A DNA stretch of 64,000 bases from Streptomyces tateyamensis (GTDB lineage Bacteria; Actinomycetota; Actinomycetes; Streptomycetales; Streptomycetaceae). Under the pieces are notes generated by a model that saw only the letters and a program-made list of their open reading frames with translations, was not told the origin of the DNA and made no database searches. Below are positions 289 through 12,485 of the stretch, piece by piece (the first letter of the stretch is position 1; the number at the start of each line of letters is the position of its first letter). The position numbers and the translations under genes were made by a program. The stretch lies in assembly GCF_003205575.1 (NCBI RefSeq), contig NZ_PYBW01000010.1:62001-126000 (forward strand), given 5' to 3'.

Positions 289-361
289 CGGACTGTCCGC
301 CCGTCCCGCTGTCCCCCGGATGCCCCGGGGTCCCCCACGTTCCCGCGACAGGAGCACCGCG

Positions 362-676
362 ATGACCTTCTCCGACGCCGTCCCGATCAGCGTCCAGCAG
401 GAGTTGGAGGGCGCCGGGCCGTACCTCAACTCGCAGGCGGCCGAGATCTCCGAAGAGCTGAACCGGCTGGCCCAGTACCTGAACCAGCTGCCCGAGCTCT
501 GGCAGGGCGCGGCCTCCGGCTACTACCAGGGCCTGCAGGCCGAGTGGAACCAGGCCGCCGAGGGGCTGTTCGGCCCGGAGGGGGTGCTGGGCCAGATCGC
601 CCGCGCCCTGAACGTCAACTGGGCCAACTACAGCGACGCCGAGTGGGCCAACTCCCGAACCTGGAACCATCACTGA
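362..676 (+). CDS. WXG100-family ESX secretion substrate
   Basis: 104 residues, the normal WXG100 length. Two predicted helices flank the motif LWQG near residue 46. The C-terminal helix carries WANYSDAEWANS, related to the YVNYAESEQAN end of the preceding gene, which supports a paralogous pair. The ATG at 362 is preceded by GGAG at 351-354; an upstream in-frame ATG at 320 has no ribosome site and adds low-complexity residues, so the shorter form is preferred. The stop overlaps the eccD start by one base (TGATG), indicating translational coupling. Expected role: co-secreted partner of the preceding WXG100 protein. Confidence 0.9.
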   Translation: MTFSDAVPISVQQELEGAGPYLNSQAAEISEELNRLAQYLNQLPELWQGAASGYYQGLQAEWNQAAEGLFGPEGVLGQIARALNVNWANYSDAEWANSRTWNHH

Positions 677-2061
677 TGGCGGATCGGCACACCCGCGTGA
701 CGGTGGTCGGCGAACGCAAGCGGGTGGACCTCGCACTGCCGGCCGACGCCCCGATCGCCGAGTACGCCACGATGCTGGCCCGGCTGTGCGGCGAGGAGGA
801 ACTGGAGGCGCTGCCGGCGGCCTGGTCGCTGGCCCCGCCCGGCGGCCGCCCGCTCACCCCGGTCTCCTCGCTGCACGCGGCCGACGTGGTGGACGGCCAG
901 CTCCTGTACCTGCGGGACGCGGCCGAGGGCGAGTTCGAGGAGCCGCTGGTCCGCGACGTCGAGGAACTCGTCGCCGACGCCGCCGACTCCCTCGGCGACC
1001 TGCGCTGGACCCCGCGTAGCCGGGCCGCCACCATGGCGGCGCTCGGCACGGTCTGGCTGGCCGCCGGGTGCCTGGTGCCGACGCTGTCCGGCGGCTGGTC
1101 GGCCGTGGCCGGCGGGCCGACCGCGCTCGGGGCCGGGCTGGTCCTGCTGCTCACCGCCTGGGTGCTGCGCCGCGGCAGCGCGGCTTCGCCGGCCGGCCCG
1201 GCGGCGTTGCCGCGCCGGCTGGCGCTGCCGTGTGCCCTGGGGGCGGTCCCCTGCCTGGCGGTGGCCGGGTGGTTCCTGCCGCAGGTACCCGGCGGCAGCC
1301 CGTCGGCCGCGGCCCTGGGCGCGCTGGTCGGCGCCGGCGCGGTGCTCGGCGCGGTGCCCTGCGTGACCTCCGCGGCCGTGCTGCTGTTCGGCGCGGTGAC
1401 GGCGGCCGTGGTCGGCCTGCTGACCGGCCTGCGGGCGGACAGCGCCGAGTCCGCGGCCGTGGTGGCGGTGGCCGGGTACGCCCTGCTGCTGCTCGCCCCC
1501 TGGCTGGCCGCGCAGTTGGCCGCCCTCGGGCTGGAGTCCGAACCGGCCGCGGCCAGGGACGACGGCGCGGTGCTGGCGATGGTGCACCGGGCCCGCACCG
1601 TGCTGCTGTACTGGACGCTGTCCGTCTCACTGGTGCTCGGCGCCGCGCTCGCGGTGCTCGGGGCCTCGCACGGTGGCTACCCGCCCGCGCTGGCCTGCTG
1701 CCTGGCGATCGCCGCGCTGCTGCGGGCGGGCACGTTCCGATTGCTGTCCGAGGTGGTCCCGGTGGTCGCGGCCGCCACGGTCGGCCTGCTCAGCGTGCTG
1801 CTGAGCATCCCGGCGGACCTGTCCGCGGCCGGGTGGCTCGGTGCCGTACCCGGCTGGACCGGTCCGGTCGCCGTCGCGGTGGTCGGCGTCGGCATGCTCG
1901 GTACCGGCGCCGCGCGGGCCTTCCGGCACCCGGCGGGGCTCCCGAAGCGGCCGGCGGCGGTGACCATGCTGGGCACGCTCTGCGGGGCCGCCGCGGTGCC
2001 GCTGGCGCTCGGCACCTTCGGCGTCTTCGGCTACCTGGCCGAGCTCGGGCACCACCTGTGA
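676..2061 (+). CDS. eccD: EccD, type VII secretion integral membrane channel component
   Basis: 461 residues. The first about 80 residues form a ubiquitin-like (YukD) cytosolic domain; from about residue 115 onward roughly eleven hydrophobic Ala/Leu/Val/Gly segments follow, the standard EccD architecture. EccD lines the inner-membrane pore of the ESX complex with EccB, EccC and EccE. It is coupled to the upstream WXG100 gene by a one-base stop/start overlap, so substrates and channel share an operon. The start at 676 removes a spurious 44-residue upstream extension that would overlap the WXG100 gene. Other ecc genes and the EccC ATPase must lie left of the window; no mycosin protease follows. 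Confidence 0.88.
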   Translation: MADRHTRVTVVGERKRVDLALPADAPIAEYATMLARLCGEEELEALPAAWSLAPPGGRPLTPVSSLHAADVVDGQLLYLRDAAEGEFEEPLVRDVEELVADAADSLGDLRWTPRSRAATMAALGTVWLAAGCLVPTLSGGWSAVAGGPTALGAGLVLLLTAWVLRRGSAASPAGPAALPRRLALPCALGAVPCLAVAGWFLPQVPGGSPSAAALGALVGAGAVLGAVPCVTSAAVLLFGAVTAAVVGLLTGLRADSAESAAVVAVAGYALLLLAPWLAAQLAALGLESEPAAARDDGAVLAMVHRARTVLLYWTLSVSLVLGAALAVLGASHGGYPPALACCLAIAALLRAGTFRLLSEVVPVVAAATVGLLSVLLSIPADLSAAGWLGAVPGWTGPVAVAVVGVGMLGTGAARAFRHPAGLPKRPAAVTMLGTLCGAAAVPLALGTFGVFGYLAELGHHL

Positions 2062-3378: not shown

Positions 3379-3487
3379 CCTCGTCGGACGTGAAGATCGT
3401 GACGTCGCCACGCCGGCCCTGACGCAGTGTCACGGCGGCGGGAGCAGCGTCGATGGCGTACTTGTGCCCATGCAGACCGGCTGTCTC
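3379..3487 (-). pseudogene. 3' fragment of a PIN-domain toxin gene (second copy)
   Basis: This 109-base stretch is nearly identical to part of the intact PIN-toxin gene at 6784-7179. On the minus strand it reads ETAGLHGHKYAIDAA and GDVTIFTSDE, the regions holding the last two catalytic aspartates. An extra few bases (around 3413) disturb the frame relative to the intact copy, and both the N-terminal half and the antitoxin are missing. It is therefore a dead duplicate, and it links this debris patch with the tRNA-Thr element 3.4 kb away. Confidence 0.8.
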
Positions 3488-5439: not shown

Positions 5440-5895
5440 TCAGATGTCCGCGGCGACCTCTGTCGCATAGCGGCCCATGACCGCAGCCACGGAATCCGGG
5501 GTCAGCTGCCGACCGCCACTGATCATGTCGCGCAGGTCCCGGAAGTACTGCACGTACAGGTCCGGCGTGAACGTGTTGAGCATGACGAGTGGCTGGTCTC
5601 CCGGGTTGGCAAAGGTGTGCGGGGCTCCGGGAGGCACCATGACAAGCGTCCCCGTCGGAGCGTCGTGCGAGGTATCGCCGACGGTGAAGCGGGCGGTGCC
5701 CGAGATGACGTAGAACCCTTCGTCGTGCTGGGCGTGCCGGTGCTGGGGCGGCCCCGCCGTGTGTGGCGGGATGGTGATCTCGGCGATCCCGAGCCGGTGC
5801 GCGGTGGTCGCGCCGCTTTCGATGATGCGGATGCGGGCGGTGCCGAGGTCGATCACTTCGCCGCCACCAGGGCCGACGACTGACACATCGTTCAT
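5440..5895 (-). CDS. cupin-domain protein
   Basis: 151 residues with one cupin barrel: metal ligands in HRHAQHDEG (motif 1) and PPGAPHTFAN (motif 2). Such small cupins include dioxygenases, isomerases and storage-type proteins, so the reaction is not assignable. AGGAG precedes the ATG at 5895. It is convergent with tetR, with only about 20 bases between stops, and is not obviously co-regulated with the hydrolase. The upstream gap (5896-6103) holds no gene I can support. Confidence 0.85.
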   Translation of the reverse strand: MNDVSVVGPGGGEVIDLGTARIRIIESGATTAHRLGIAEITIPPHTAGPPQHRHAQHDEGFYVISGTARFTVGDTSHDAPTGTLVMVPPGAPHTFANPGDQPLVMLNTFTPDLYVQYFRDLRDMISGGRQLTPDSVAAVMGRYATEVAADI

Positions 5896-6103
5896 GGCTC
5901 ACTCCTATGCAGCATCGGCGAGTGCTCACTGCCGAGGCAAGTACCAGAAGCAGCAAGGCGGCAGGCAACCGCCCCACTCCCGCTGGGGTACGCAGCCTGC
6001 CAGTGGCCAAACATTTTGACGCGCCGTCACATGGTGCCACGCGACAGCGCGCAGGTCCGCTCGTGCCGGATCGGATCAGTCGGCGACGTTCCGGCACCTA
6101 CCG

Positions 6104-6424
6104 CTACAGTCCTGCCAGGGCTTCGCCGAACATGATGACGGTCCCCAGGACGAAGAAGCACCCCACCCCGATCAACGCCCCACCCCCCGCCTTATCGACT
6201 CGGGTCGGCCCGAGCTGCTGACCGGCACTGCCCAGCAGGTCGGTGCGCTCCGCGGGCGTAAATACCCAGGGCGGCTTGCGCCCGGTCCTCCTGCGGAGCT
6301 GTCCCATCCAGAAGAGCAACACGGCAATAGCCAGGGTGAGGAGTCCGGTCCTCAGGTAATCACTCACCGAGCCCTGCCGCGCCACCTCAGCAAGCATGAG
6401 TCCCACTTGTCCCCCCAAATGCAC
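6104..6424 (-). CDS. small membrane protein, function unknown
   Basis: 106 residues with two hydrophobic segments: LLTLAIAVLLFWMGQL around residues 28-43 and ALIGVGCFFVLGTVIMFGEAL near the C terminus, separated by a basic loop (RRRTGRKPP). I recognise no family. The start may instead be the internal Met10. It borders the island: immediately upstream (6425-6544) come a strong hairpin and then the truncated tRNA copy. Coding potential looks normal for the genome, but support is only the intact frame and membrane pattern. Confidence 0.6.
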   Translation of the reverse strand: MHLGGQVGLMLAEVARQGSVSDYLRTGLLTLAIAVLLFWMGQLRRRTGRKPPWVFTPAERTDLLGSAGQQLGPTRVDKAGGGALIGVGCFFVLGTVIMFGEALAGL

Positions 6425-6471
6425 GGCCGCACCCGTGTCGATGGAAGATCACCTCACAGCCTCCGGAGCCC

Positions 6472-6504
6472 GAGAGCCCCGGGCCGGTCCGGCCCGGGGC
6501 TCTC
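6472..6504. terminator. strong hairpin, probably the original tRNA-Thr terminator
   Basis: A 14-bp GC stem (GAGAGCCCCGGGCC with its complement, 5-base loop) lies just beyond the distal tRNA duplicate. In the uninterrupted chromosome it would sit directly downstream of tRNA-Thr on the minus strand, so it may be that tRNA's native terminator, displaced by the element. Confidence 0.65.
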
Positions 6505-6544
6505 TGCGTTCCCGAGGGCCGGTTGACCTGGCCCTTGACACTCT

Positions 6545-6587
6545 GAGCCCCCTGTCGGGTTCGAACCGACGACCCCCGCTTTACAAG
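6545..6587. repeat. 43-bp direct repeat, distal att-like copy of the tRNA-Thr 3' half
   Basis: These 43 bases are identical to 7614-7656, which covers the anticodon region through the 3' end of tRNA-Thr(TGT). The sequence diverges immediately on the anticodon-stem side. This is the expected footprint of site-specific integration into a tRNA gene, leaving an attL/attR pair. Confidence 0.88.
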
Positions 6588-6783
6588 CACCGCCCGAATC
6601 CTGACGGCGCATGACATTCACTGCCGCGTGGTGCTGAACCTGCAGGCCAGCCCCATGCGGCAGTCCTGGGCTGCCCTGCCCACCCCGGCTTGCTGTCACA
6701 CCGTCCGCTCACGCATCGCTCAAGCAGCAGATCCGGCTGACAAGGACTTTCCGGCCCGGCTCACGTCCCGATCCTCTCCAACT

Positions 6784-7179
6784 TCAGATCCCTCTGACAA
6801 CGACACGATCCCCGCAGAGAAGTCTCATGTCCTCCTCGTCGGACGTGAAGATCGTGACGTCGCCACGCTGACGCAGCGCCACTGCGGCAAGAGCGGCGTC
6901 GATGGCGTACTTGTGCCCATGCAGACCGGCCGTCTCCAGCAGCTCGATCGCCTCCCCCGCGATCTCCCTCGTCACCGGTTCCACTGCGACCTTGGAGAGG
7001 GTCCATGCCCACGCAGCCTTCTTGACGCGCCCGTGATAGGCCTCGATGAGCGTCATCGACGTGGTCACAACCCGGATACCGGAGCGATCCGCATCCTTCA
7101 ACCGGGCACCCATCGCGCGGTGCCCAAGAACGGCTTGGGACAAGCCCTCGCTGTCGAGCACATAGACGAGCTCGGACAT
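6784..7179 (-). CDS. PIN-domain ribonuclease toxin (VapC-like)
   Basis: 131 residues with the acidic PIN tetrad at the expected places: D9 (YVLDSEG), E46 (TLIEAYHG), D94 (AIDAALAAVA) and D114 (FTSDEED). Such toxins cleave tRNA or rRNA with bound magnesium until neutralised by their antitoxin. The start ATG overlaps the stop of the upstream antitoxin gene (TGATG), the classic coupled antitoxin-first order. The gene lies inside the tRNA-Thr remnant element, and a broken second copy of its 3' part is at 3379-3487. All four acidic residues are intact, so activity is plausible. Confidence 0.85.
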   Translation of the reverse strand: MSELVYVLDSEGLSQAVLGHRAMGARLKDADRSGIRVVTTSMTLIEAYHGRVKKAAWAWTLSKVAVEPVTREIAGEAIELLETAGLHGHKYAIDAALAAVALRQRGDVTIFTSDEEDMRLLCGDRVVVRGI

Positions 7180-7454
7180 CAACCCGCCTTGCGCTGAGGC
7201 ACAGAACGAGCCTTGCGCTCCGCGTGCTGCCGTTGGAGCGAGAGCCTCTCCGCCTCTGCGGCCGCCAGCTCCGCGTCGGTCACCTCGCCATGCTCGCCCT
7301 CCCACCAGCCGACGAACTCGTGCAGGTGGTCCCGCTCGCGCTGACGCTCTATGGCCTGCGCGACGTACCGGCTGAACCCGCCCGACCCCACCTCGGCGCG
7401 GATCTCCTCCGCCAGCTCCTCCGGCAGCGTCACCGTGTACTTCTTCGTTGCCAT
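7179..7454 (-). CDS. antitoxin partner of the PIN toxin
   Basis: 91 residues. The N terminus KKYTVTLPEELAEEIRAEV followed by GGFSRYVAQAIERQ is a ribbon-helix-helix DNA-binding pattern (beta strand, then two helices). The C-terminal part is charged, as expected for the toxin-masking tail. The ATG at 7454 is chosen because the fold begins there; in-frame ATGs at 7463 and 7466 are possible, and none has a strong ribosome site. It is coupled to the toxin by a one-base overlap. RHH antitoxins usually repress their own operon, so sites in 7455-7613 would be expected. Confidence 0.78.
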   Translation of the reverse strand: MATKKYTVTLPEELAEEIRAEVGSGGFSRYVAQAIERQRERDHLHEFVGWWEGEHGEVTDAELAAAEAERLSLQRQHAERKARSVPQRKAG

Positions 7455-7613
7455 ACCAGTCATCATACCGACTGCCCGATGCAGGCAGGCCGACGCGACA
7501 CCGCCCTGTGCGCCGGCCGCGCCGCTCGCGCAAACGGCCCCGGACGAGTCGTCCGAGGCCGGTGACAGAACCCCCAGAAGGCCAAACCTGCAGCTCATCA
7601 AGGGTGGTAACGA

Positions 7614-7656
7614 GAGCCCCCTGTCGGGTTCGAACCGACGACCCCCGCTTTACAAG
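7614..7656. repeat. 43-bp direct repeat, proximal copy inside tRNA-Thr
   Basis: This is the tRNA-embedded partner of 6545-6587, with 43 of 43 bases identical. It runs from just outside the 3' end of the tRNA through the T arm to the anticodon loop. Confidence 0.88.
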
Positions 7657-7688
7657 AGCGGTGCTCTGGCCAGCTGAGCTAAGGAGGC
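7615..7688 (-). tRNA. tRNA-Thr (anticodon TGT)
   Basis: On the minus strand the cloverleaf folds fully: acceptor GCCTCCT/AGGGGGC, D arm AGCTCAGCTGGCCAGAGC, anticodon stem CCGCT/AGCGG around loop CTTGTAA (anticodon TGT), and T loop GGTTCGAACC. No CCA is encoded. A TAGACT-like -10 lies at 7732-7737, 44 bases upstream. The 3' half is the target of the adjacent remnant element, which has regenerated a complete tRNA. Confidence 0.93.
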
Positions 7689-7856
7689 ACGGTGACCGTC
7701 CGCGGCGCGGGGCCACGGCGGTACCGGAGGCAGTCTAGCGGGCGGGGTGGGGGGCATGGGGTGGACCAGTGGGAGAGCGTGATCGGAACGGTACGGGGAC
7801 GGGGGCTGACAATCGCACGAATCGGCGGGTAGCCTCGGGGGACGCGTTGCCGGATG

Positions 7857-7872
7857 ACTGGTGTAGACCAGT
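7857..7872. promoter_or_regulatory. dre-like operator for a DasR/GntR-type regulator
   Basis: ACTGGTGTAGACCAGT differs by one central base from the perfect palindrome ACTGGTCTAGACCAGT, the form known for DasR sites in streptomycetes. A half-site (TGGACCAGT) lies at about 7762-7770. The site is 73 bases upstream of msiK. Control of the shared sugar ATPase by the aminosugar regulator is therefore likely, but unproven here. Confidence 0.72.
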
Positions 7873-7944
7873 GGCGGCGGCGCGACCACCCCACCTTTAC
7901 TCGGATCGTCCGGCACGTTCCTGCCGGTGAAGGAGAGCACAGCC

Positions 7945-9036
7945 ATGGCTTCTGTGACGTACGACAAGGCGACCCGCCTCTACAGCGGGACGGACAAGCC
8001 CGCGGTCGATGCCCTGGACCTGCACATCGAGGACGGCGAGTTCCTGGTGCTGGTCGGCCCCTCGGGCTGCGGCAAGTCGACCAGCCTGCGGATGCTGGCC
8101 GGCCTGGAGGACGTCAACGGCGGCGCCATCCGGATCGGCGACCGCGACGTGACCCACCTGCCGCCGAAGGACCGGGACATCGCGATGGTGTTCCAGAACT
8201 ACGCGCTCTACCCGCACATGACCGTCGCGGACAACATGGGCTTCGCGCTCAAGATCGCGGGCGTCAACAAGGCCGAGATCCGCCAGAAGGTGGAGGAGGC
8301 CGCGAAGATCCTCGACCTGACCCAGTACCTGGACCGCAAGCCGAAGGCGCTCTCCGGTGGTCAGCGCCAGCGCGTCGCGATGGGCCGCGCGATCGTCCGT
8401 GAGCCGCAGGTCTTCCTGATGGACGAGCCACTGTCCAACCTGGACGCCAAGCTCCGCGTCTCCACCCGCACCCAGATCGCCGGCCTGCAGCGCCGCCTGG
8501 GCATCACCACGGTCTACGTCACCCACGACCAGACCGAGGCCATGACCATGGGCGACCGCGTCGCGGTGCTCAAGGACGGTCTGCTGCAGCAGGTCGACAC
8601 CCCGCGCCGGATGTACGACCGGCCCGCCAACGTCTTCGTGGCCGGCTTCATCGGCTCGCCCGCGATGAACCTGGTCGACGTGCCGCTGGTGGACGGCGGC
8701 GTGAAGTTCGGCGGCTCGGTCATCAACATCTCCCGCGAGGACCTGGCCGGCGTCGGCAGCGACAAGACGGTGACCGTCGGCATCCGCCCGGAGCACTTCG
8801 AGATCGTCCCCAGCGGCGGCCTGGAGGGCGTGGCGGTGACCGTCAACGTGGTCGAGGAGCTCGGCGCGGACGGCTTCGTCTACGGCACCACCCAGGTCAG
8901 TGGCGTGGACAAGGACATCGTGGTCCGGGTGCACGGCCGTCAGATCCCGGCCAAGGGCGAGACGATCCACGTGGTCCCGACCGGCGGCGAGCCCCACGTC
9001 TTCTCCGCCAGCACCGGTGCCCGCCTGAGCGCCTGA
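7945..9036 (+). CDS. msiK: MsiK-type multiple-sugar ABC importer ATPase
   Basis: 363 residues. Walker A is GPSGCGKST (38-46), Q-loop Q84, signature LSGGQRQR (136-143), Walker B VFLMDEP (156-162), and H194. The C-terminal about 120 residues form the regulatory OB-like domain of the UgpC/MalK class. In streptomycetes one MsiK energises many carbohydrate importers, and here too no permease or binding-protein genes flank it. AAGGAG precedes ATG 7945; the GTG 18 bases upstream is rejected. A dre-like site lies upstream and a strong terminator at 9118-9155 follows, so it is monocistronic. Confidence 0.93.
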   Translation: MASVTYDKATRLYSGTDKPAVDALDLHIEDGEFLVLVGPSGCGKSTSLRMLAGLEDVNGGAIRIGDRDVTHLPPKDRDIAMVFQNYALYPHMTVADNMGFALKIAGVNKAEIRQKVEEAAKILDLTQYLDRKPKALSGGQRQRVAMGRAIVREPQVFLMDEPLSNLDAKLRVSTRTQIAGLQRRLGITTVYVTHDQTEAMTMGDRVAVLKDGLLQQVDTPRRMYDRPANVFVAGFIGSPAMNLVDVPLVDGGVKFGGSVINISREDLAGVGSDKTVTVGIRPEHFEIVPSGGLEGVAVTVNVVEELGADGFVYGTTQVSGVDKDIVVRVHGRQIPAKGETIHVVPTGGEPHVFSASTGARLSA

Positions 9037-9117
9037 GCGCCAGCACCTGAGCACGAGTACCTGAGCACGGAGCACCCGCCCGCCGCCGAGCGCGGCCGGT
9101 GCCGCTCTAGAACACTT

Positions 9118-9155
9118 GGCGAGCCCCGTCGGACACCCGTCCGGCGGGGCTCGCC
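9118..9155 (+). terminator. rho-independent-type terminator after msiK
   Basis: GGCGAGCCCCG pairs perfectly with CGGGGCTCGCC around a short partly paired loop, 80 bases after the msiK stop. No long T-run follows, as is usual in actinomycetes. Confidence 0.8.
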
Positions 9156-9219
9156 GCTTCGTCACTCGTCCGTGTGACGCGGTGTCGGCGGACCCTCACA
9201 CGGCGCTAACCTCGCTGGC

Positions 9220-9678
9220 GTGAAGCAGCTCGTTCGCCGAATCGGCCAGACCATCGCCCTCACCCTGCCCGTGATCCTGGTGACCACCGGCACCCTCGCC
9301 GTGACCAGGGTCGCCTGGGCTCCGCCCGTCGGGGACGACCAGCAGGTGGTCGCCGCCGCGAGCGGCTCCGGCCCGGGCATCGGCCGCAGCGCCAACGCGG
9401 GCGCCGGCAGCACCGCCCAGCAGCATCCTGGGATGGCACCGCAGGACGCCCTGCGCGCCGACCTGATGGAGGAGCTGCGCACCCGCGGCGCCGCCTCCGC
9501 GCTGGACCTGCTGGAGCGCTCGATGCACGAGCAGCCCGCGCTCACCCCGTACTGCACCACGCTGGCCCAGGAGTTGGGCCGGGCGACGCTGAAGAAGTAC
9601 CAGGGCGACGTGCAGCGCGCCCGCTCCTTCGCCCGCCCGGTCTGCGACGGCTCGTTCGCCGCCGGCATCGCAGGCTGA
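9220..9678 (+). CDS. conserved secreted or membrane-anchored protein, unknown function
   Basis: 152 residues starting at GTG 9220. A basic N terminus (KQLVRRIGQ) is followed by one hydrophobic segment (TIALTLPVILVTTGTLAVT), giving a signal peptide or signal anchor. A flexible Gly/Ala/Ser linker precedes a helical domain of about 75 residues with two cysteines (YCTTLAQE, PVCDGSF) that could form a disulfide outside the cell. I do not recognise a named family. It sits between msiK and the nucleotidyltransferase. Confidence 0.7.
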   Translation: MKQLVRRIGQTIALTLPVILVTTGTLAVTRVAWAPPVGDDQQVVAAASGSGPGIGRSANAGAGSTAQQHPGMAPQDALRADLMEELRTRGAASALDLLERSMHEQPALTPYCTTLAQELGRATLKKYQGDVQRARSFARPVCDGSFAAGIAG

Positions 9679-9752
9679 CGACGGAGCAGGAGCACCGACT
9701 GACGAGGGGTCAAGGACGCCTCACGCGGGGTGCGCAGGCCTATCCTGCCCCC

Positions 9753-10547
9753 ATGACCGGCTTCGAGCACACCAGTACCCCGCCCGCGCCAGCCGCCTCG
9801 CCCGTGCTGGCCCAGACCGTCGCTCCGACCGTGGCTCCGACCGTCACCCAGGCCGTCATCCTGGCCGGCGGTCAGGGCTCCCGCCTGCGCCCGTACACCG
9901 ATGACCGGCCCAAGCCGCTGGTCGAGATCCCCGGCACCGGCACCCCGATCGTCGGCCACCAACTCGCTTGGCTGGCCGCCGAAGGCGTGACGGACGTGGT
10001 GATCTCCTGCGGCCATCTGGCCGAGGTGCTGCAGGACTGGCTCGACCGCACCGAACTGCCGCTGCGTGCCGGCACCGTGGTCGAGACCGAGCCCCTGGGC
10101 CGGGGCGGCGGGCTGAAGTTCGCCGCCAAGGCGCTGCCCCGCCCGGACCAGCCCTGGTACGCCACCAACGGCGACATCTGGACCAGGTTCAGCCTGCGCG
10201 AGATGGCCGCCTTCCACCATGAGCGGGACGCCCTGGCCACCCTCGCGCTGGCCCGCCCGCGGATCCCGTGGGGCGCGGTGGAGACCGACCGGTTCGGCAA
10301 CGTGCTGGACTTCATCGAGTCCCCACCCTCGCCGTTCCTGATCAACGCCGGCCTGTACGTCTTCGCACCCGGCTTCGCCGAGCTGCTCCCCGACGTCGGC
10401 GACCACGAGCGCACCACGTTCCCCCAACTCGCCCGCGCCAAGCGGCTGGCGGGCTACCAGTTGCCGCAGGGCGTGTACTGGCGCGCCATCGACACCGCCA
10501 AGGACCTCAGCGAGGCGGCGAAGGAGCTGGCGAGCAGCAACTCCTGA
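9753..10547 (+). CDS. sugar-nucleotidyltransferase family protein
   Basis: 264 residues. Nucleotide-binding signature GGQGSRLRP (39-47), then DRPKPLVEI (51-59), and the metal-binding NGD (D141) of the mannose-1-phosphate guanylyltransferase / glucose-1-phosphate thymidylyltransferase superfamily. It has only the Rossmann-like catalytic domain and no left-handed beta-helix, so it is a short form. The first 30 residues (repeated PTVAPTV) are low complexity, and the true start could be internal. The sugar and nucleotide are not predictable. A terminator at 10606-10645 follows. Confidence 0.82.
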   Translation: MTGFEHTSTPPAPAASPVLAQTVAPTVAPTVTQAVILAGGQGSRLRPYTDDRPKPLVEIPGTGTPIVGHQLAWLAAEGVTDVVISCGHLAEVLQDWLDRTELPLRAGTVVETEPLGRGGGLKFAAKALPRPDQPWYATNGDIWTRFSLREMAAFHHERDALATLALARPRIPWGAVETDRFGNVLDFIESPPSPFLINAGLYVFAPGFAELLPDVGDHERTTFPQLARAKRLAGYQLPQGVYWRAIDTAKDLSEAAKELASSNS

Positions 10548-10605
10548 CGGAAAACGAGGACCGGGGACCGGGCGGGTAGCAAGAGGGCAAACAGCAAAGG
10601 GCAAA

Positions 10606-10645
10606 GGGCGGGTGGCCCCTCTGTCAGGAGAGGGACCACCCGCCC
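10606..10645. terminator. bidirectional hairpin terminator
   Basis: GGGCGGGTGG pairs with CCACCCGCCC, enclosing a smaller inner stem (CCCTCT/AGAGGG). It lies between the converging nucleotidyltransferase and DoxX genes. Confidence 0.85.
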
Positions 10646-10679
10646 AGCCATTCAGCCGTCGATCCAGCCGGCGACCGGC

Positions 10680-12485
10680 TCACACCACCGGATGCCGCAC
10701 CGCCCCGCCGCCGGGCCCCGCCATCCCCAGCGGCGACGGCAGCAGTTGCAGCGGCGGCCCGCTGCCCAGCACCCCGCCGATCAGACCGCCACCGGTCGGG
10801 CTCGGCTTGGGCGCCCGGTTGCCCGAGCCGGAGGAGCCGCCACCGGGCGTGGCGCCCGCGCCGGGCTGGCCGGGCGCGGTCGGGGCGCCACCCTGGCCGG
10901 TCTCCGCCCCGCCCCGGGTGCTGGCGGACGGGTGCGGCCTCGCGCTGTGGCTGGGTGCGGCCGACGGCGTGGCGGGCGCCGACGGCGGGGCGGGGGGGGG
11001 CGGCGGGCCCGCCGGCGTGGCCGAGGGGTGCGGCGGGCTGGAGACCCCGTTGCCCGGCCAGACCGGCGTGCCGTAGTCGGTCGGCGGCGGCGTGCCGGGC
11101 TGCGGCCGGGCGCTGGAGCGCACCGCGGCGCCCAGCAGCGAGCCGAGCAGCAGGGTCAGCCCGATCACCACGGTGGCCAGCACCGTGCCGCGGCGCAGCA
11201 CCCGGCGCCGCACCGCGCGCGGCGCCTGCGGCCCGTACCGGCGCCAGGCCTCCAGCGCGAGCCGCCCGTCCAGCGAGGCGAACGGCGCGCCGGCGATCAG
11301 CAGCGGGCTCCAGGCGGCCAGGAAGATCAGGTCGGGCGTGTCGTAGACCGGCACGGCGCGCCAGCTGACGGTGAACAGCAGCGCGGCGGAGAGCAGCATC
11401 GCCGCGGCGGCCGCCAGCCGCTGCCACAGGCCGAGCAGCGCCAGCACGCCGACCACGACCTCGGTGAACGCCACCGCCAGCCCGGAGCCGACCGGGTGCG
11501 CCATGGCGAAGTCCAGCAGCGGCTGGGCCACCTTCCACGGGTGCAGCGAGGAGAGCCAGCGCATCATCGAGCCGCGCGCGCCGCCGTCGAAGTAGACCGG
11601 GTCGCACAGCTTGCTGAACCCGGCGTAGACCGAGAGCGAGCCGAGCACCAGCCGCAGCGGCAGCAGCACCAGGCCCAGGTCGACCTTGCGGCCGGGGTAC
11701 CAGGCGTGCCGACTGGACTCGCCGGCCGGCGCTGCCGAGTGCTCGGGCAGCTCACCGGCGGGCTTCCAGGCGGGGCGCAGCGGCCGGACGGGCGCGGCGG
11801 CCGGACGACCGGCGGCCGGCCCGCGGCCGCCGGGAGCCCCGGGCGTGCCGTGCGGCTGGCGCGGCACGGCGGCACCGCGCCCGTACCCACCGGGCTTGCC
11901 GGCCCCGCCGCCCGTGCCGGGCCCACCGGACCGGTAGCCGTACTCGTCACCCGAGCCGTCCCAGCCGGGCAGCTCCATCGGCTGGGTCGCCTCCGGGTCG
12001 GCCAGCCCGACCGAGGACCCGCCCGGCGCGCCGCCGGTCGATGGCCCGCCCACCGAAGCGCCCAGCGCCGCGGCTCCGGCCGGCACGGTGTTCAGCCGCA
12101 CCGCGTCCAGCAACTGACTGGCCGCCAGGTCGCCGGGCGCCGCCTGGCCGCTCCAGGTCACCGCGGTGACCCGGCCCTTGCGCCGCGGGGCGCCGCTCAG
12201 CGAGCCGCGCCCGCTGCCGTCCGCCGCCCCGGCCCGGACCAGCCCGGGCCGCCCGCCGTAGCTGTGCGCGGAGTACGGGCGGCCGAAGGCGTCCGCGTAG
12301 GGCGCGGCCACCGCCGGCGGTGCGTCGATCATCGGCAGCACCGGGTCCGCCAGCCGGAGCCGGAAACTGACCTGGGTACTGCTGAGCCGGGCCGGATCGC
12401 TCGGCACCTTGACGGTGCTGAGACCGGGCTCCGCCTCCATGGCTGCTCCGCCCAGCCCTGGGCGCCGACGTGTTCTGGTGTCCAC
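10680..12485 (-). CDS. DoxX-family membrane protein with long disordered flanks
   Basis: 601 residues from GTG 12485 (AGAGGGG upstream); an ATG at 12440 with GGAG is a credible alternative. About residues 265-430 form a four-helix DoxX domain, beginning VDLGLVLLPLRLVLGSLSVY and containing the family-typical GFSKL. A further membrane segment lies near 440-460, followed by a Pro/Ser/Ala-rich tail of about 140 residues. The N-terminal 260 residues are Gly/Pro/Arg-rich and probably cytosolic. DoxX proteins are linked to quinone or thiol redox at the membrane, but the role here is inferred. It lies downstream of rlmB on the same strand. Confidence 0.82.
   Translation of the reverse strand: MDTRTRRRPGLGGAAMEAEPGLSTVKVPSDPARLSSTQVSFRLRLADPVLPMIDAPPAVAAPYADAFGRPYSAHSYGGRPGLVRAGAADGSGRGSLSGAPRRKGRVTAVTWSGQAAPGDLAASQLLDAVRLNTVPAGAAALGASVGGPSTGGAPGGSSVGLADPEATQPMELPGWDGSGDEYGYRSGGPGTGGGAGKPGGYGRGAAVPRQPHGTPGAPGGRGPAAGRPAAAPVRPLRPAWKPAGELPEHSAAPAGESSRHAWYPGRKVDLGLVLLPLRLVLGSLSVYAGFSKLCDPVYFDGGARGSMMRWLSSLHPWKVAQPLLDFAMAHPVGSGLAVAFTEVVVGVLALLGLWQRLAAAAAMLLSAALLFTVSWRAVPVYDTPDLIFLAAWSPLLIAGAPFASLDGRLALEAWRRYGPQAPRAVRRRVLRRGTVLATVVIGLTLLLGSLLGAAVRSSARPQPGTPPPTDYGTPVWPGNGVSSPPHPSATPAGPPPPPAPPSAPATPSAAPSHSARPHPSASTRGGAETGQGGAPTAPGQPGAGATPGGGSSGSGNRAPKPSPTGGGLIGGVLGSGPPLQLLPSPLGMAGPGGGAVRHPVV

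Follow-up and report, generated by a model that had tools for sequence, protein, structure and literature searches.

A toxin–antitoxin operon between two tRNA-Thr half-repeats: a probable internal-deletion derivative of a tRNA-site integrative element

How does a toxin–antitoxin (TA) pair come to be the only gene content between a tRNA gene and an exact copy of that tRNA's 3′ half? The question is raised by a tRNA-Thr(TGT) gene in the window, the 64,000-nucleotide stretch analysed here (contig C2, positions 62001-126000, of genome G000, a soil actinobacterium). A decayed tRNA-site element with a TA pair is a known kind of genomic fossil. The present locus and its relatives show an actinobacterial integrative element at a single tRNA before and after decay, together with the empty site. 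The TA pair is all that is left of the gene content, seemingly in two different lineages. Whether TA pairs guard the DNA around them or survive because of where they lie is an old question that thereby becomes testable.

The unit and its TA operon

The tRNA-Thr(TGT) gene is the sole tRNA that ARAGORN finds in the window (Table 1). It adjoins msiK in every relative examined in which msiK lies inside the fetched stretch, and its other side varies among genomes. The 3′ half of the gene (7614-7656) is repeated exactly over 43 bp at a spacing of 1,069 bp. An exact 43-mer pair has a chance expectation of about 2e-13 in 64 kb at the window's GC content, and these two copies are the only ones in the whole genome, which confirms the duplicate about 1.07 kb from the intact tRNA that the original prediction had described. 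The same repeat also bounds elements in many relatives. The interior between the repeats measures 1,026 bp, and the GC content of the element is 66%, compared with 74% for the window. It holds a PIN gene and a small upstream gene, and nothing else.

Table 1. Coordinates of the features discussed (window positions unless a contig is given)
Feature	Position	Strand	Basis
tRNA-Thr(TGT), intact, integration target	7614..7688	-	ARAGORN
Distal att site, exact copy of tRNA-Thr 3′ half	6545..6587	-	repeat search
Left (distal) arm of the probable parental element, paired putative arm-type motif	6588..6735		alignment with seven larger elements (left ends)
Intact toxin gene of PIN-domain (VapC-like) type, 131 aa	6784..7179	-	PF01850
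Putative ribbon-helix-helix antitoxin gene, 91 aa	7179..7454	-	sequence pattern and gene order
Right arm: tyrosine integrase 3′ remnant (in frame), one putative arm motif at 7523, hairpin	7498..7613	+	arm and integrase alignment
Hairpin outside distal repeat, perfect 16-bp inverted repeat	6472..6504		inverted-repeat search
Second PIN copy, degraded to a fragment, 3.1 kb outside the scar	3379..3487	-	109 bp, 88% identical to intact PIN gene
G109 integrative and mobilizable element	L152/L162, G109:C120:100427-127461		integrase, relaxase, MobC found

The PIN gene matches PF01850 at 27 bits (cut-off 23.6), and its acidic residues D9, E46, D94, and D114 are conserved in all aligned relatives. The stop of the small gene overlaps the PIN start. 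No Pfam family matches the small gene, an AlphaFold model of its product gave no significant match in a fold search of the PDB, and its NCBIfam match is weak. Thus, the ribbon-helix-helix call leans on an N-terminal KKYTVTLPEELAEEIR pattern and on gene order. The gene content foreseen between the repeats is therefore as predicted and the PIN toxin is supported by its Pfam profile, and the small gene is best called a putative ribbon-helix-helix antitoxin.

The pair shares with VapBC-type (PIN) type II systems the upstream gene for a putative antitoxin, the overlap of the two genes, and a PIN toxin with four acidic residues. It differs from them in that the NCBIfam VapC family model is matched only below its cut-off (E 0.006) and that a profile search of solved structures returned no significant homologue by sequence. 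Searches with the PIN gene gave no phage match, and all plasmid homologues are below 60% identity. The dN/dS of the PIN gene is well below 1, and the operon evolves under purifying selection, consistent with function. Presumably the operon is still functional as a type II module, with an unstable antitoxin that would bind and repress, and a PIN RNase toxin.

Ends shared with full-size elements

Both ends of the interior match both ends of 9-16-kb elements that occupy this tRNA in related genomes. At the distal side, the first ~147 bp after the repeat can be aligned with the equivalent position in seven larger elements (from G005, G007, G008, G014, G049, G054, and G055). At the other side, the ~100 bp adjoining the tRNA correspond to the tRNA-proximal ends of the same seven. 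Window positions 7498-7674 match residues 469-526 of the G005 integrase (L066; PF00589, 9e-18) at 81%; about 38 of these residues lie outside the tRNA, and the last ~20 are tRNA sequence. Additionally, the left arm contains the motif CGCTCACGCA at 6706 and, with one mismatch, at 6717. In full-size elements this motif mostly occurs as a pair spaced by 11 bp, at constant offsets from each end (116/127 left, 102/91 right), and the window unit has it at matching offsets (118/129 left, 91 right). The tandem form has 24 matches in 1.48 Mb of fetched loci, all within the element family or its derivatives. Their position and repetition suggest that the motifs are integrase arm-type sites. No cognate integrase remains in the window's own genome, in which the best match is partial, at 35%.

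A full-size relative with the operon is found in G109, which belongs to another genus of the same family. There, the TA locus adjoins a 43-bp half of tRNA-Thr(CGT), the intact tRNA lies 27 kb away, and the 43-bp repeat bounds an element of 26,949 bp. Its tyrosine integrase, beside the tRNA, is 64-66% identical to the intact genus integrases of G005, G007, G049, and G055, and it has DUF3631 and HTH proteins in common with the genus elements. The element also encodes a MobA/VirD2-type relaxase and MobC. Its left motif pair has offsets of 116/127, and the first genes inside its left end are PIN and then antitoxin, oriented as in the window, with 230 bp from the PIN end to the left element end compared with 199 bp in the window. 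The full-length, integrase-bearing element that had been proposed as a check thus exists, with the pair, but at a different isoacceptor; at tRNA-Thr(TGT) itself, no full-size element with the operon was found. The G109 interior also contains large helicase-like ORFs and a radical SAM gene.

As both ends match full-size elements and G109 displays the corresponding arrangement, the window unit is very probably a CIME-like internal-deletion derivative of a full-size tRNA-site element. The TA operon of the parental element would have lain close to the distal att site, on its inner side, as in the G109 element. One or more deletions, reaching from the upstream side of the antitoxin into the 3′ end of the integrase, would have removed the remainder, and such a deletion in a G109-type arrangement would yield the window unit. 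The idea of an integration scar is thus upheld by the end matches, the integrase tail, the full-size relative with the pair at the same position, and an empty site for one carrier (described below).

CIMEs are cis-mobilizable elements derived from ICEs or IMEs (PMC7563491, PMC5704250). The window unit resembles them in its location at a tRNA 3′ end within a hot spot of tandem accretion and in keeping attL and attR, here as exact 43-bp repeats with homologous arms. It has no integration or transfer genes, only the PIN and antitoxin genes, and descent by deletion from an element with an integrase and possibly transfer genes is indicated by the integrase 3′ tail, the full-size relatives, and the relaxase-bearing G109 element with the same operon position. 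It differs from them in that it is actinobacterial, its 1,069 bp fall just under the 1.2-13 kb reported for gene-bearing S. salivarius CIMEs, and its cargo is a TA operon only; mobilization by an incoming element is putative. With IMEs, represented by the 27-kb G109 element, it shares the integrase family, the 43-bp att repeat, the arm motif offsets, and the TA position. However, the integrase, relaxase, and MobC of G109 have no counterpart in the window unit, which therefore lacks the integrase and relaxase of its own that define an IME. Integrases of pSE211-type AICEs target tRNA-Thr (PMC3218068), and the element family is like these AICEs in having a tyrosine integrase that adjoins the tRNA and inserts at the tRNA-Thr 3′ end. 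AICE membership was dropped, since Int, Rep, and an FtsK-like Tra are absent from the window unit and six full-size relatives gave no FtsK/Tra match within their tRNA-Thr elements.

Other carriers and the persistence of the operon

A small unit is also present at the same tRNA in G051 and G009. G051 has both junctions in common with the window (z 12.8 and 7.0), which points to the same internal-deletion derivative. In G009, the left junction (z 2.5) is barely above unrelated controls (up to 2.0), and the arms group with full-size elements at a bootstrap below 50. It is likely, if short of proof, that the G009 unit was reduced independently and ended with the same genes. The three carriers form no clade in a tree of msiK and cysS and have close sisters without the unit. 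Synonymous divergence among them is 0.16 and 0.45-0.55 for the TA genes, compared with 0.17-0.36 and 0.29-0.40 for core genes; recent horizontal transfer among the carriers is rejected, as the TA values lie in the core-gene range. Old residence with losses and old transfers both fit the carrier distribution.

Why the operon survived is a separate matter, and addiction, end position, or host benefit may each be reflected. In the addiction reading, the rest of the element decayed freely while cells that deleted the operon were killed, so that the pair survived independently in more than one lineage. The intact operon under purifying selection agrees with this, and the different junctions of G009, together with its weak arm grouping, suggest a second reduction that ended at the same content. 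However, the pair is absent from most genus genomes with elements at tRNA-Thr(TGT), and its end position alone accounts for its being spared by one deletion. Operon copies also do decay, as PIN or antitoxin fragments occur in three genomes. In the window itself, the fragment at 3379-3487 is, by its sequence, a dead second PIN copy; G005 has PIN fragments, and in G055 (L079/L113) antitoxin fragments lie at L113 3903-4069, which is 1.3 kb beyond the distal repeat that bounds a full-size element. Addiction-driven retention is therefore possible but rather doubtful, and the stronger form in the original prediction, that the pair stayed because an addiction module cannot be lost, is not established, given these decayed copies, the dispersal of the operon, and the sufficiency of its att-side position. 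The G055 remnants look like a layering of elements of different age at a single tRNA.

Two minor observations concern further PIN sequences near this tRNA. The dead window copy is flanked by a TPR-like ORF on one side and an alpha/beta-hydrolase-like ORF on the other. Another PIN gene, complete and with 48% identity, lies at G000:C2:56664-57026, 5.0-5.3 kb before the window start and near the same tRNA region, with a related antitoxin upstream.

The operon occurs in 38 of 395 family genomes. A further alternative is that it reached the scar separately from the element, when decay had already taken place. At many unrelated loci it keeps identical boundaries (window 6784-7470), and close homologues (84-86% DNA identity) sit at loci with no tRNA, half-site, or arms, which would allow a later arrival of the operon between the arms. 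Within the stretches read, the sampled operon loci that are not tRNA-linked contained no tRNA or arms. In G058, a sequence resembling half a tRNA lies 1.2 kb away from the operon, but it was discounted, being without a second copy. In the TA tree, the G109 genes fall in a different subclade from the copies in the small units, with non-tRNA copies in between; thus, operons have been exchanged among loci. Nevertheless, the intact G109 element holds the operon at the same position and orientation, and late insertion would need at least two separate associations with the element family. This alternative is improbable.

Slightly less probable still is a non-autonomous mini-element of about 1 kb, whose att cores and arm sites would be kept by selection and which a related integrase would move in trans with its TA cargo. 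If true, it would be a tyrosine-recombinase counterpart of a MITE carrying its own addiction module. Outside the operon, essentially two att arms with motifs remain, the carriers are scattered as described, and their outer flanks differ, all of which would suit such mobility. However, the core-level synonymous divergence of the TA genes argues against recent movement, G051 has lost most (~140 bp) of its left arm, and the distal sites of G009 and G051 are degenerate. Finally, an unrelated coincidence of repeat and operon, favoured by nothing beyond the wide dispersal of the operon, is already refuted by the exact 43-bp repeat, the homologous arms at both ends, and the integrase tail.

The tRNA-Thr(TGT) site as an integration hot spot

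A half-site pattern is present in 57 of 70 genus genomes, 21 of which have 2-4 copies. Integrase genes of three families end beside the tRNA or beside a half-site. Of 57 sampled loci, 21 have such matches, and some of these, including G009 and G051, are integrase tails only. The tRNA-Thr(TGT) site is an integration hot spot. The comparison with relatives that had been suggested also revealed an empty site in G012, a close relative of G009, in which the same outer gene end and flank are followed directly by the tRNA.

The flank beyond the distal repeat points to an earlier occupant. Window positions 6476-6587 are 81-83% identical to the tRNA-proximal ends in L034, L035, and L071 and to the L075 outer flank, and an integrase ORF stops 77-88 bp before the tRNA in L034 and L071. 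Because the hairpin and the 65-bp spacer beyond the distal repeat match the tRNA-proximal end of elements of the second integrase family, an older element probably decayed there first, and the hairpin is probably its tRNA-proximal terminator. The view of the hairpin as a displaced tRNA terminator is thus retained only loosely, and that of a plain tRNA terminator is set aside. The outer flank of G055 is not orthologous to that of the window.

Several further loci broaden this picture. At the same tRNA, L068 (G008), L077 (G057), and L028 (G018) keep the integrase-proximal arm and match over the length of the integrase tail only; by sequence comparison, these elements or single-copy sites look like further decay stages. 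The 13.5-kb tRNA-Thr element of G005 (L066) carries, at oriented positions 5794-11879, methyltransferase, JmjC-like cupin, aldo/keto reductase, and HTH genes, a cargo resembling a small biosynthetic cluster. Beside the scar, window 320-2061 contains a WXG100-like ORF that is unannotated and encodes a large, multi-spanning EccD-like protein, both named by sequence appearance only; they may represent part of a type VII secretion locus.
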